A DNA stretch of 64,000 bases. It comes from Massilia sp. erpn (GTDB lineage Bacteria > Pseudomonadota > Gammaproteobacteria > Burkholderiales > Burkholderiaceae_D). Under the pieces are notes generated by a model. That model had not been told where the DNA came from. It worked only from the letters and a program-made list of their open reading frames with translations, and ran no database searches. Position numbers and translations under genes: made by a program. Where the stretch lies: assembly GCF_024400215.1 (NCBI RefSeq), contig NZ_CP053748.1:4216001-4280000 (forward strand), given 5' to 3'. Below, piece after piece: positions 17,087 through 24,796 of this stretch. The first letter of the stretch is position 1; each line of letters begins with the position of its first letter.

Positions 17087-17935
17087 TTAAGCGGTGCGCT
17101 TGTACCAGGCTTGCTGGGGCAGGAGCTGCTGGTAGTGGCGGGCGTGGGCGTCGTCGCTGGCGAGGGGGCGGTCGAGGCCGAGGATGCCGAGCGGGGCGAG
17201 GCTGGCGTGGAACAGGCGCAGCACGCGCTGGCGCAGCAGCGGGCCGAAGTCGGGCAGGGCGCGGCGGCAGACGATGAGCTGGAATTCGTTGAAGGAGGCG
17301 TCCGTCACGAGATTGTATTGCGCCCAGCTGATGCGGCTGCGAAGCTGCGGCAGCAGCACGGCGTGGCCTTCCTCCATCTGGAAATGGGCCGAGAGGCTGG
17401 CTGTGCCACCCGCGTATTCATACAGGCGCTGGCATTGCGCCAGCCGTTCAACGGGAATGCGGCAGGCGGCGGCTTCGGCCAGCAGCTCGTCGCTGCCCAC
17501 CGTGGCGTGGATTTCGGTCTGGGCCAGCAGGCCTTCCTCTTCCAGCAGCACGGCCAGGGTCCAGGCCTGTTCCGCCCCGGCGCAATCGGCCAGCCAGACG
17601 CGCGGCAGAGCGGCGCCGCGCAGGCAGGCATCGAGCAGGCCGCGCAGCTGCAGCGCTTCCTGCGGATCGTCGAACAGCGTGGCCGGCGGCACGCTCAGCG
17701 CGCGCAGCAGGGCGCTGGCGGTGGCCGGATCGTGCAGGGCGCGGTCCTGCAGCGACGATAGCGTCGCCAGGCCGCGCCGGTGCAGCAGCGCGTACAGCTT
17801 GCGTTTCAGGGCATCGCGCTCATGCAGCCGGTAGTCGAAGCCGTAGCGGCGTACCAGCGCCTCCAGCAGCAGATCCAGTTCCAGTTCTTCCAGTTCCGCG
17901 CCGGCTTCGCTGCGCAGGTCCGATAGTGCGCCCAT
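17087..17935 (-). CDS. CheR-like protein with degenerate methyltransferase motifs
   Basis: A 282-residue protein with the length and fold order of CheR: an N-terminal helical domain (about 15-85), then a Rossmann-like domain. The signature residues are changed. The SAM-binding loop GCSTGEE is DCAGAEQ (117-123), the FFR segment is LFDDP (87-91), and the CRN motif is VCRRAL (222-227). It is therefore probably not an active receptor methyltransferase. Start 17935 has AAGGAGGA just upstream; 17956 (overlapping the kinase stop) is possible. It is the last gene of the operon with the poly-HAMP kinase, so a scaffold or c-di-GMP/receptor-binding role is plausible. Confidence 0.8.
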
Positions 17936-17955
17936 GGCTCCTCCTTCCGCCGACA

Positions 17956-20900: not shown

Positions 20901-22860
20901 GCTGGTTGACGTTTTCGGTCAGGTCTTTCCAGGTGCCGGCCACGCCGGACACATTGGCCTGGCCACCGAGCTTGCCCTCGGTGCCGACCTCGCGCGCCAC
21001 CCGCGTCACTTCCGAGGCGAAGGAGGACAGCTGGTCCACCATCACGTTGATAGTGTCTTTCAGCTCCAGGATTTCGCCCTTCACGTCCACCGTGATTTTC
21101 TTGGACAGGTCGCCGCGTGCCACGGCCGTGGTCACGGCCGCGATATTCCTCACCTGGCCGGTCAGGTTCGAGGCCATGAAGTTCACGTTATCGGTCAAGT
21201 CCTTCCAGGTGCCGCCCACGCCGGGCACATAGGCCTGGCCGCCCAGCTTACCCTCCGTGCCCACCTCGCGCGCCACCCGCGTCACTTCCGAGGCGAAGGA
21301 GGACAACTGGTCCACCATCACGTTGATGGTGTTTTTCAGTTCCAGGATTTCGCCCTTCACGTCCACTGTGATCTTTTTGGACAGGTCGCCGTTCGCCACG
21401 GCGGTAGTCACTTCCGCGATATTCCGCACCTGGCCGGTCAGGTTGCCCGCCATCGAATTCACGCCGTCGGTCAAGTCTTTCCAGGTACCGGCCACGCCCA
21501 GCACATTGGCCTGGCCGCCCAGCTTCCCTTCCGTACCGACCTCGCGCGCCACGCGCGTCACTTCCGAGGCGAAGGAGTTCAGCTGGTCCACCATCACGTT
21601 GATGGTGTTTTTCAGTTCCAGGATTTCGCCCTTCACGTCCACCGTGATTTTCTTGGACAGGTCGCCGTTTGCCACGGCGGTGGTCACTTCCGCGATATTC
21701 CTCACCTGACCGGTCAGATTGCCCGCCATCGAGTTTACCGAGTCGGTCAAGTCTTTCCACGTACCGGCCACGCCCTTGACCTGGGCCTGGCCGCCCAATT
21801 TGCCTTCCGTACCGACCTCGCGCGCCACCCGCGTCACCTCTGAGGCGAAGGAGGACAGCTGGTCCACCATCACGTTGATGGTGTTTTTCAGTTCCAGGAT
21901 TTCGCCCTTCACGTCCACTGTAATCTTTTTCGATAGGTCGCCATTCGCCACGGCGGTGGTCACGGCCGCGATATTCCGCACCTGGCCGGTCAGATTCGAC
22001 GCCATGAAGTTCACGTTGTCGGTCAAGTCCTTCCAGGTGCCGCCGACGCCGGGCACATACGCCTGGCCGCCCAGCTTGCCTTCCGTGCCCACTTCGCGCG
22101 CCACGCGCGTCACCTCGGACGCGAAGGAGCGCAGCTGGTCCACCATCACGTTGATGGTGTCCTTCAATTGCAGGATTTCGCCGCGCACGTCCACCGTGAT
22201 TTTCTTGGACAGGTCGCCGTTCGCCACGGCGGTGGTCACTTCCGCGATATTACGGACCTGGGAGGTCAGGTTACCCGCCATCGAGTTGACCGAGTCGGTC
22301 AAGTCCTTCCAGGTGCCGGCCACTCCCTTGACCTGGGCCTGGCCGCCCAGCTTGCCTTCCGTACCCACTTCGCGCGCCACGCGCGTCACTTCGGACGAGA
22401 AGGAGGACAGCTGTTCCACCATGGTGTTGGCCGTGGTCGCGGCGCGCAGGTACTGGCCCTTGAGCGGATGGCCGTCCACCTCCAGCGCCATGGTCTGCGA
22501 CAGGTCGCCCTTGGCCACGGCGCCGATCACGCGCGCCATTTCCGTGGTCGGCCGCACCAGGTCGTCGATCAGAGTGTTGACCGAGCTGATGATGGTGCTC
22601 CAGCCGCCCGAAACCGTCGGCACGGCGGCGCGCTGCGTCAAACGGCCCTCGCGGCCGACCACGCGGCTCACATCGGTCACTGCCTTGACCAGCTTCTCGT
22701 TGTTTTCAATGATGTCGTTGAGCGTATCCGCGATCTTGCCTGAAACGCCGGTCCAGTCGGATGGCATGCGCACAGAGAAATCGCCTTTTTTGAGTGCCAT
22801 CAGGGTGGACAGGATCAGGCGCAGGTCCAGTTCCTCGGGCAGTTCGGTCATATCATTCAT
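17956..22860 (-). CDS. Soluble poly-HAMP hybrid histidine kinase with GAF and three receiver domains
   Basis: A 1634-residue cytoplasmic kinase with no transmembrane segment. Order: divergent HAMP-like units (about 15-151), six near-identical 92-residue HAMP tandem units (152-703), GAF domain (about 715-870), coiled coil (about 880-935), HisKA with H949 in [11 protein letters not shown], HATPase (N1065/N1069 region, [17 protein letters not shown]), then receivers REC1 (D1297), REC2 (D1419) and REC3 (D1566), all with acceptor Asp. The layout recalls the poly-HAMP group III osmosensing kinases of fungi (Nik1/Os-1) and bacterial relatives. Its start overlaps the stop of the upstream REC-GGDEF-EAL gene by eight bases, so the two are co-translated. 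Confidence 0.94.
20752..22407 (-). repeat. Six tandem 276-base HAMP-coding units
   Basis: Within the poly-HAMP kinase, six in-frame units of 276 bases (92 codons) lie head to tail with no spacer. Core segments such as [18 protein letters not shown] and [14 protein letters not shown] recur nearly unchanged in the first five units; the unit nearest the GAF domain is the most diverged ([18 protein letters not shown]). Two linker flavours alternate: (A/G)[17 protein letters not shown] and [18 protein letters not shown]. Confidence 0.92.
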
Positions 22861-24796
22861 TGACGAAATCCTCTTGGGGTAAAGGGGTATGTCCGTTCAA
22901 ATGCAGGGCGGGCAGCACTTCCTGCGCCGGCAATGGTGGGCAGAACAGCTCGCCCTGATACTGCTCGCAATCCACGGTCTGCAGCACGGCCAGCTGGCTC
23001 TGGTTCTGTACGCCCAGGGCCAACACTTCCATGCCGAGGGCGCGCGCCAGGTGGACGATGGCGGCCACCATATCGCTGCCGCCTTCCACCGTGCCGATAT
23101 TGCGCACAAAGCCGGCGTCGATGCGCATCTGGTCCAGGCCCAGCTTGCGGCAGGTCGCCAGCGAGAAATGGGCGTGGCCGAAATCGTCCAGCGCCAGGCG
23201 CACGCCGCCCGACTGCAGCTGGTGCAGCACGCCTTCGATCGCCTCATTATGGGCGCGCAGCAGCGCCTCGCCCAGTTGCAGCGTGATGCTGCCGGCCGGC
23301 AGGCGGTGCTTGCGCATTTCCGCCAGCAGGCGCGCCGGAATCTCGGTATGCAGCTGGGTGGTGGCAAGGCGCAGCGACAGGTGCAGCGGCGCGCGGCCGG
23401 CGGCCACGCTGCTGGCGGGCGCGCCGCCGCCGGCGTTGAAGTCGGGCAGGGACAGGCCGGGCGGGCGCGGACCATCGCGCCACAGCGCCGCTTGCGCGCA
23501 GGCGGCGCCGATCAGCCAGGCGTCCAGCCGGTCGAGCAGGGCGCGGTCCTGGATGTCGGCCAGGAAGCGCGGCGCGGCCAGCAGTCCCTGGTGCGGATGG
23601 CGCCAATGCAGCTGGGCTTCCACGCCGCTGGCGCGGCCGCTCGCCAGATCGACCTGGGGCTGGTACAGCACTTCCAGCTGGCCGCTGACCAGGGCCAGGC
23701 GCAGTTCCGAGGTCCACAGCTCGCGTTCGCGTTCCAACTGGTTCAGCTCATCGTGGAAGAATTTCAGGCTGCCCTCGTCGCCGCCGGCATGGCTGGCGCG
23801 CGCATGGCTCAAAGCCAGGTCGGCGTGCTTCATCAGCTGCTGGGCGTTGTCCGCGTCCTGGGGATAGAGCGCGATGCCGATGCTGCTGACATTTTTCAGG
23901 CGGTGGATGCCGATGTCGAAGGGCCGGGCATGCGCCTGGCCGATCTTGTGCGCCACGCGCGCCGCATTGGCGCCGGCGCCATTGCCTTCGATGAGCACGG
24001 CGAATTCGTCGCCGCCCAGGCGCGCCACCACGTCGGACACGCGCACGGCGGCCGACAGCCGCGCCGCCACATGGCGCAGCAGCTCGTCGCCGACTTCGTG
24101 GCCCAGGCTGTCGTTGACCTGGCGGAAGCGGCTGATGTTGACGAACAGCAGGGCGAATTCGCCGCGCTGGCGGTCGGCTGTGGCGACGGCGTGTTCCAGC
24201 TGCTGCACCAGGGAGCGGCGGTTGAGCAGGCCGGTCAGGTTGTCGCGCGTCTGCAGTTCGGCGGCGCGGCGCTCGGCTTGCTGGCGCTCGGCCATTTCCT
24301 GTTCCAGCTCATGGCCGATGCGCTCCATTTCCTGCTGGCGCTGGGCGCGCAGGCTCTGGTTCAATTTGTGCAGCTCGTCGGCCTGGTCGCGCAACTGCAT
24401 GGTCTTGCGCGCCAGTTCGGTGAACACGGCCACCTTGGCTTGCACGATCTGCGGCACCAGGGGCGTGAACAGGTAGTCGGCGGCGCCGTTCTGGTAGGCG
24501 CGCAGGCGGTTCACCTCGTCGGCATAGTGGGCGGTGATGAAGATGATGGGCACCGCGCTGGCACGCGGGTGGGAACGGATGGCATCCGCCGTGTCGAAGC
24601 CGTCCATGCCGGGCATGCTCACGTCGAGCAGGATCACCGCGAACTCATGGCGCAGCACGGCGCGCAGGGCGTCTTCGCCCGAGACGGCAGTATGCAGCTC
24701 ATAGCCGCGCCGGTCGGCTTCGGCCGCCAGCAGGCTTTCCAGCGCAAACAGGCTGGCGGGATCATCGTTTACAAGGAGGACTTTGGGAATCTGCAC
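22853..24796 (-). CDS. Receiver-GGDEF-EAL protein with eroded catalytic sites
   Basis: A 647-residue response regulator. The receiver (1-125) has an intact D58. A long coiled coil (130-180) leads to a GGDEF domain (about 182-345) with GGDEF at 261-265 and an RxxD inhibitory site (R252-D255), but the usual metal-binding DLD is N220-I-S222. The EAL domain (about 355-635) keeps E393 and the DD pair (537-538), yet the conserved Asn is R476, the EIT Glu is Q507, the catalytic Lys is R558 and AEGVE reads ALGVQ. Both activities are doubtful. The start is a GTG. It is first in the operon with the poly-HAMP kinase. Confidence 0.88.

Follow-up and report, generated by a model that had tools for sequence, protein, structure and literature searches.

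A degenerate CheR-like protein linked to a poly-HAMP hybrid kinase in Massilia and related bacteria

What do a CheR-like protein without its S-adenosylmethionine (SAM) motif and a REC-GGDEF-EAL protein with altered active sites do beside a hybrid kinase? The question is raised by a three-gene locus of Massilia sp. erpn (NCBI RefSeq assembly GCF_024400215.1), whose 6.15 Mb genome is a single contig (NZ_CP053748.1). The stretch analysed, referred to here as the window, comprises 64,000 nucleotides (positions 4,216,001 to 4,280,000), and coordinates below count from its first letter. A first-pass annotation of the sequence described a leftward three-gene unit with coupled start/stop overlaps and proposed that both partners are inactivated enzymes. 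It had them form, with the kinase, a complex that reads cyclic di-GMP (c-di-GMP) or receptor state. We judge it somewhat better than an even chance that the locus encodes a poly-HAMP phosphorelay in which an adaptation methyltransferase has turned into a non-catalytic subunit, with an exchangeable REC output that was probably silenced in the window's lineage. The list of open reading frames (ORFs) and the Pfam domains confirm three leftward genes in a row (24796-22853, 22860-17956, and 17935-17087), with these principal features:

22853..24796, minus strand: REC-GGDEF-EAL partner protein, 647 amino acids, GTG start (ORF; Pfam Response_reg, GGDEF, EAL; 120 listed homologues aligned)
17956..22860, minus strand: poly-HAMP-GAF-HisKA-HATPase-REC-REC-REC hybrid kinase, 1634 amino acids (ORF, Pfam)
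20761..22860, minus strand: HAMP array, kinase residues 1-700 (Pfam; best segments 76-97% identical among the best 80 loci listed)
17087..17935, minus strand: pseudo-CheR, 282 amino acids, alternative start 17956 (ORF, Pfam, homologue alignment; AAGGAGGA 5' of 17935)
17567..17587, minus strand: former SAM motif, DCAGAEQ (residues 117-123) instead of GCxxGEE (alignments)
17282..17296, minus strand: SFNEF patch (residues 214-218), common to intact CheR linked to poly-HAMP kinases (alignments)

The claimed coupling holds for the first pair, as the REC-GGDEF-EAL and kinase genes share an 8-nt overlap. For CheR, the ATG that overlaps the kinase stop (17956) is an alternative only; the start at 17935, preceded by AAGGAGGA, is more likely on the sequence.

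The kinase and its CheR-like neighbor

Pfam finds six HAMP and seven HAMP_2 stretches, a GAF domain, HisKA, HATPase, and three REC domains in the kinase, in agreement with the tandem HAMP units and three receivers first described. Judged by eye, the protein is soluble, with no membrane helix, and its catalytic motifs (the H-box and the three receiver Asp residues read in the translation) are intact. An array of more than five HAMP units together with HisKA, HATPase, and receivers gives it the makeup of a group III-type kinase. The HAMP repeats also give Pfam matches to SpoIIID and HTH_6 below threshold (17959-22860), perhaps an artefact of the helix pattern. Array segments are 76-83% identical between the window's family and Cyanobacteria, Acidobacteria, and Verrucomicrobia, a level far above that of the partner proteins and possibly due to constraint, transfer, or homogenisation of the repeats. 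At four loci (L066, L085, L086, and L093), the kinase is split across at least two ORFs, representing either real breaks or errors in repeat assembly.

The CheR-like protein matches the Pfam SAM domain (PF01739) at 42.5 bits (cut-off 27), and its CheR_N match (22.7) falls below the cut-off of 27. The first-pass statement that it lacks the SAM motif is fully borne out. GCxxGEE occurs in none of 120 listed homologues (of 958), which carry DCAGAEQ (60), DCAGAGQ (43), or close variants. Among 80 neighbourhoods fetched around matches in the family (Oxalobacteraceae), CheR adjoins a poly-HAMP kinase in 67 and is degenerate in every one. In the other 13, CheR lies beside other kinases and is intact in 13/13, as are all six of the other CheR domains of the window genome. 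Given this distribution among the sequences, the motif losses are not due to chance.

Residues were compared across 67 pseudo-CheR, 13 intact poly-HAMP-linked CheR, and 18 other intact CheR proteins. The SAM-contact and active-site roles (GCxxGEE, an acidic ribose residue, the FRD Arg, and CRNxxIYF) are those we take from the CheR literature. In pseudo-CheR, the SAM Gly117 is replaced by Glu or Asp in 67/67, Gly121 and Asp146 are retained in none, and position 89, the FRD Arg, carries Asp or Glu in 63/67 and Arg in 0/67. Tyr229 has likewise become Asp or Glu in 63/67. The SAM motif, Asp146, and the FRD Arg are thus present at none of the 67 linked loci versus all 13 comparators beside other kinases. 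By contrast with these losses, Ser214, Asn216, and Phe218 are kept in 65, 66, and 67 of the 67 copies, and within the comparison set they are otherwise common only to the intact poly-HAMP-linked class. The AlphaFold model shows a confident CheR fold (predicted local distance difference test, pLDDT, 86.8; predicted template modelling score, pTM, 0.81), and the ten top-ranking PDB entries matched to it are all CheR or CheR complexes; the fold match extends over the whole length. The protein is therefore predicted to keep the CheR fold. These comparisons support its description as a conserved, constrained pseudoenzyme tied to the poly-HAMP kinase.

CheB was detected at 0/67 pseudo-CheR loci, the sister locus L041 among them, with a home-made model that was built from few own-genome sequences and that found CheB at 11 of 13 comparators, missing L115 and L119. 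Pfam identifies six CheB domains in the window genome, none at the window locus.

Intact relatives of the pair exist elsewhere. Beyond the family, the best 80 loci listed place the array kinase in Acidobacteria, Cyanobacteria, Verrucomicrobia, Planctomycetes, and Alphaproteobacteria. Intact CheR and CheB lie downstream of it in nine acidobacterial or cyanobacterial loci (L139, L141, L144, L146, L147, L153, L155, L168, and L180), with a second GAF kinase intervening in L155, L168, and L180. Many of the other listed array loci, for example in Sphingomonas, show neither protein. A pseudo-CheR profile scan of 399 genomes of the order matched 33 outside the family; CheR was intact in 24/24 of those read, and nine neighbourhoods were fetched. 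Three of these nine, G563, G304, and G603 (L243-L245), have the array kinase with intact CheR and CheB and represent three other Burkholderiales families. At L245, the next gene encodes a REC-PAS-GGDEF-EAL protein (the PAS part is a reading) with intact GGDEF and EAL signatures.

Of two CheR trees, the first comprises 32 of the 67 pseudo-CheR together with the window protein. The other, of 58 rows and rooted on the CheR of other kinases, comprises 29 pseudo-CheR and the window protein; from it L077, L104, L106, and the own-genome CheR proteins L207, L209, L210, and L212 were dropped, and own-genome L208 is in neither tree. Pseudo-CheR proteins form one clade with support of 100/100 in the 58-row tree. 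They share a branch with the intact poly-HAMP-linked CheR (99/94 in the second tree; 84 in the first). Because of this single clade on a shared branch, the loss in CheR most simply happened once, as far as the trees indicate.

The upstream protein and its outputs

The REC-GGDEF-EAL protein has its nearest named relative in Pseudoduganella violacea (97%). Residue counts are from 120 listed of 6678 homologues. The features that bear on its activity are as follows:

24002..24016, minus strand: GGDEF motif (residues 261-265), intact; kept in 120/120 listed homologues
24032..24043, minus strand: RxxD I-site (R252, D255), intact; R and D kept in 120/120 listed homologues
24137..24139, minus strand: GGDEF-domain metal-ligand position, Asn220 for Asp; Asp in 119/120 listed homologues
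22934..23749, minus strand: degenerate EAL domain, with H397, R476, Q507, R558, and L594 at signature positions (Pfam, alignment)

Residue 220 is presumably the first metal-ligand Asp, at the position of PleD D327. Of the features of an active diguanylate cyclase, the GG[DE]EF motif is therefore present and this Asp is absent. The change is accompanied by S222 and R225. The sole listed homologue with Asn220 (P0121) is 97% identical to the window protein, and among 23 linked GGDEF partners the Asn occurs only in the sister, L041, which is 97-98% identical. A GGDEF domain that is dead family-wide was considered and rejected, given the metal Asp in 119/120 listed homologues.

For the EAL domain, we assume the signature roles to be the EAL Glu, the EAL-motif Arg, Asn, the EIT Glu, DD, Lys, and the AEGVE Glu. 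The window protein keeps E393, E510, D537, and D538 and does not carry the signature of an active EAL phosphodiesterase. None of the 120 listed homologues has the EAL-motif Arg or the AEGVE Glu. The window has also lost N476, E507 (the EIT Glu), and K558, which most of the listed homologues retain (104, 113, and 119 of 120, respectively). The AEGVE Glu is missing from 20 of the 22 EAL partners at linked loci; the other two, L066 and L092, retain every signature residue. So do L135 (Noviherbaspirillum malthae) and L137 (a Herminiimonas metagenome-assembled genome, MAG), both without a detected CheR. The simplest order of losses from these sequences would be CheR first, EAL next, and GGDEF last and only in the window's lineage. 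In the REC domain, the phosphorylatable Asp58 is kept. The predicted model of the whole protein has a pLDDT of 82.1 and a pTM of 0.57.

The slot upstream of the kinase is variable. A GGDEF protein lies directly upstream on the same strand at 23 of the 67 loci, a REC-HisKA_3-type kinase alone at seven further loci, and a divergent REC-HisKA-REC kinase at 12. No partner is shown at 25 loci, in five because the contig ends (L061, L065, L072, L073, and L091), and of the 62 loci whose upstream sequence is visible, 20 show no REC partner within 3.5 kb. HisKA_3 kinases were missed by home-made domain models and found by Pfam, which was run on seven partner proteins (L085, L087, L088 twice, L094, L095, and L141); the others were classed by the models and REC identity. 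The partner counts leave out a distant REC-GGDEF-EAL protein at L107, whose REC is 28% identical. Over REC and linker, 22 partners in L085-L107 match the window protein at 49-61% identity whatever their output, versus 24-33% for the second receivers of the same kinases, which suggests a single REC whose outputs were exchanged. The core of the system is the kinase and CheR, the three-gene order is not fixed, and the REC output may be HisKA, HisKA_3, GGDEF, or GGDEF-EAL.

Two arrangements of the slot stand apart. At L088 (2983-5668), a REC-HisKA_3 kinase adjoins a REC-GGDEF protein 5' of the poly-HAMP kinase; the REC domains of the two are similar, as if a duplication had been captured midway between two outputs. 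In another Burkholderiales family, L244 (15144-18035) has a GGDEF-EAL-REC protein directly upstream of the kinase, with REC at the opposite end.

These results bear unevenly on the first-pass annotation. Of the changed active sites it described in the REC-GGDEF-EAL protein, the degenerate EAL stands, and the GGDEF and RxxD motifs are intact, D220N being the change in that domain. An inactivated GGDEF enzyme as part of the system as a whole is not supported, because the loss is seen only in the window species and its sister. A fixed three-gene complex does not fit the occupancy of the upstream slot, and the idea that the complex reads c-di-GMP or receptor state draws its sole support from the retained I-site. 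The annotation had asked whether relatives share the substitutions, and they do for CheR (67/67) and mostly for EAL, and do not for D220N. It had also held that intact catalytic residues in relatives would speak against it; such residues are found for GGDEF in the family, for EAL in L066, L092, L135, and L137, and for CheR only outside the family.

Two further features lie 5' of the operon:

24855..24882, minus strand: weak promoter-like site, 9/12 (motif scan)
24973..25017, minus strand: terminator-like hairpin of 19 GC pairs, behind the upstream peptidase gene (hairpin scan)

The scanned region contains three promoter-like sites, compared with 1.3 expected in shuffles. The strong terminator-like hairpin (25017-24973) sets the operon apart from the peptidase gene, at the level of predicted signals. 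Preceded by a good ribosome site, an ORF of 71 aa (17045-16830, minus strand) comes after CheR. By tblastn at E 1, it matched no fetched locus outside the window's own genome, sister L041 included, and it was rejected as a fourth operon gene because its matches are restricted to that genome. Overlaps of -84 in the locus table are an artefact of choosing the first start codon.

Retention and competing explanations

Among 245 family genomes, 70 have both the array and a pseudo-CheR-type match, 11 the array only, two CheR only, and 162 neither, with thresholds of E 1e-120 or better for the array (81 genomes) and E 1e-50 or better for CheR (72 genomes). In the two CheR-only genomes, the kinase is cut by a contig end (G222) or the contig is 3.3 kb long (G108). 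The 18 genomes of the window's genus divide into 14 with both and four with neither. As the genomes are related, the 70 co-occurrences are not independent events. Besides the window, 73 family matches reach E 1e-50 or better; 67 of these were read, from 66 genomes, the other six being G166, a second G224 copy, G058, G071, G238, and G108. Across nine informative pairs, the ratio of nonsynonymous to synonymous substitution rates (dN/dS) is 0.02-0.08 for the kinase and 0.09-0.42 for CheR, where some frames began too early and may inflate the value; the identical L043/L126 pair gave no dN/dS. For EAL, it reaches 0.54. The CheR values indicate purifying selection.

In the reading that we prefer, the module would be a cytosolic phosphorelay with the poly-HAMP/GAF hybrid kinase as its active sensor. 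The CheR-like protein would descend from the methyltransferase of a CheR/CheB pair such as other lineages have beside the same kinase. By the time of the ancestor of the Oxalobacteraceae copies sampled, CheB would have disappeared and CheR would have lost SAM binding and catalysis. CheR would then have persisted as a subunit without catalytic activity that probably docks on the kinase, the SFNEF patch being part of the contact surface. The protein encoded upstream would be the exchangeable REC output of the kinase and the presumed target of phosphotransfer. Where relatives have it in the REC-GGDEF(-EAL) form, it probably acts in most of them as a diguanylate cyclase under phosphorylation control, and its EAL domain is usually dead. 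In the window species, the cyclase metal ligand is lost as well, and the protein is therefore probably a non-catalytic response regulator that possibly binds c-di-GMP through the I-site. A more ambitious version would have one family in which CheB and CheR catalysis were lost once, a conserved acidic signature replaced the SAM and active-site residues, CheR was kept as an allosteric or scaffolding partner of a kinase that hardly changed, and the output was re-plugged repeatedly (kinase, cyclase, cyclase-EAL) and then silenced, so that the set signals here by binding alone. This version we hold to be slightly less than evenly probable.

Several observations weigh against the preferred reading. 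Evolution is much faster in CheR and EAL than in the kinase, as slow decay would also predict, and 11 of the 81 array-bearing genomes lack a pseudo-CheR match. Parts of the old motif survive, as Glu122 is kept in 44/67, Glu123 in 37/67, and Asn225 in 5/67 pseudo-CheR. The array locus L188 has an intact CheR and no detected CheB, and CheB loss alone need not, therefore, kill CheR. The SFNEF patch is near class-specific by alignment and not fully so, because FNEF also occurs in L212, an own-genome CheR without array linkage. The pseudo-CheR branch is long (0.97), which makes its exact sister group uncertain. Finally, the partner REC has Thr111 where receivers usually have Lys (Thr in 114/120 listed homologues), which makes ordinary phospho-activation uncertain.

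Among the rival explanations, slow functionless decay is the strongest. CheR and EAL would be relics that drift to deletion after the loss of CheB, with no present role, and the kinase alone would matter. Such drift would account for the missing partner genes (REC at 20/62 visible loci, CheR in the 11 genomes above), for the fetched stretches of Noviherbaspirillum malthae (L135) and the Herminiimonas MAG (L137) in which CheR was not found, for the upper dN/dS values of EAL and CheR, and for the window's extra EAL changes R476, Q507, and R558, which are rare among the 120 listed homologues. However, the CheR frame is open and co-directional with the kinase at 67/67 fetched loci (L068 diverges at its C-terminus), and an alignment of near relatives (31 rows) has 68 invariant columns. 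The lost residues, moreover, were replaced in a patterned, mostly acidic fashion, and although the loss was single and old, dN/dS has remained well below 1. Decay is on balance rather unlikely.

Two other explanations appear more doubtful still. A cryptic enzyme would go on methylating through a rebuilt SAM site or with another cofactor. Its predicted fold is intact, a set of replacements (D89, Y207, D229, R235, and D255) is conserved, and some annotated pseudoenzymes, such as USP53/USP54, have been described as turning out to be active. All 67 copies nonetheless lack both SAM glycines, Asp146, and the FRD Arg and have an acidic residue at the first of these glycines, and CheB was not detected at their loci, which makes continued methylation improbable. 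We give an equally slim chance to the first-pass model, in which a complex without catalytic activity surrounds the kinase and senses c-di-GMP. In its favor, the window species has two c-di-GMP domains that look inactive and an intact I-site RxxD, and dN is 0 over the approximate GGDEF segment relative to the sister, which shares the Asn. Across the listed homologues, however, the near-universal metal Asp (119/120) makes it more likely that the conserved system produces c-di-GMP, and the universal loss of the EAL-motif Arg makes EAL a poor receptor. From the residues, a set that reads c-di-GMP is possible in the window species only.

Similar known systems and significance

Degenerate GGDEF/EAL proteins of the LapD, FimX, and PelD types are c-di-GMP receptors, and LapD and FimX read the nucleotide through EAL. 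The window protein resembles them in its catalytic loss. Unlike them, it has an EAL without the EAL-motif Arg and only the I-site left, and its LapD match is far below the cut-off. Over its whole length, pseudo-CheR shares the fold of CheR from B. subtilis (5ftw), P. aeruginosa (CheR1, 5xly), and S. typhimurium (1af7) at 17-21% identity, and it lacks their catalytic and SAM residues. GAF hybrid kinase-CheR-CheB-REC-kinase sets of the same family (L112-L114, L116-L118, and one near 2.16 Mb of the window's own genome) have the same order and a related CheR; they differ in their intact CheR, the presence of CheB, and a kinase without a HAMP array.

AskA/AskB of M. xanthus, Amb07 of S. cellulosum, and the fungal NIK1 are group III-type poly-HAMP hybrid kinases, described like the window kinase as having many HAMP repeats, a kinase with receivers, and no membrane region (PMC7643160). 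AskA/AskB also share the weak SpoIIID/HTH_6 matches over the HAMP repeats, and AskB is reported to bind DNA (PMC7643160). The main text of that paper does not mention CheR, and no REC-GGDEF-EAL partner figures in its description of these kinases. OsaA of Streptomyces coelicolor is described as a large hybrid kinase without a membrane helix and with more than 10 HAMP units; it adjoins OsaB, a response regulator with a coiled-coil output, and no CheR or c-di-GMP partner figures in the description (PMC9739842). On the published descriptions, AskA/AskB and OsaA are the nearest bacterial poly-HAMP kinases found. Caulobacter HmrA was rejected as a relative, being described as a membrane kinase with one HAMP (PMC11481889). 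A search of open-licence papers turned up no dead CheR of this kind and no poly-HAMP/CheR gene set.

Many pseudo-CheR genes are named methyltransferase in public records, and their sequences say otherwise. The related genomes form an ordered series, from intact CheR with CheB to dead CheR without CheB, and from intact EAL through dead EAL to altered GGDEF. With this series, intact relatives can serve as the reference when a non-catalytic role of an adaptation enzyme is put to the test. Poly-HAMP kinases, which are poorly understood and architecturally like fungal antifungal targets, gain a genetically linked partner. The locus suggests that former enzymes can persist as non-catalytic partners of kinases.

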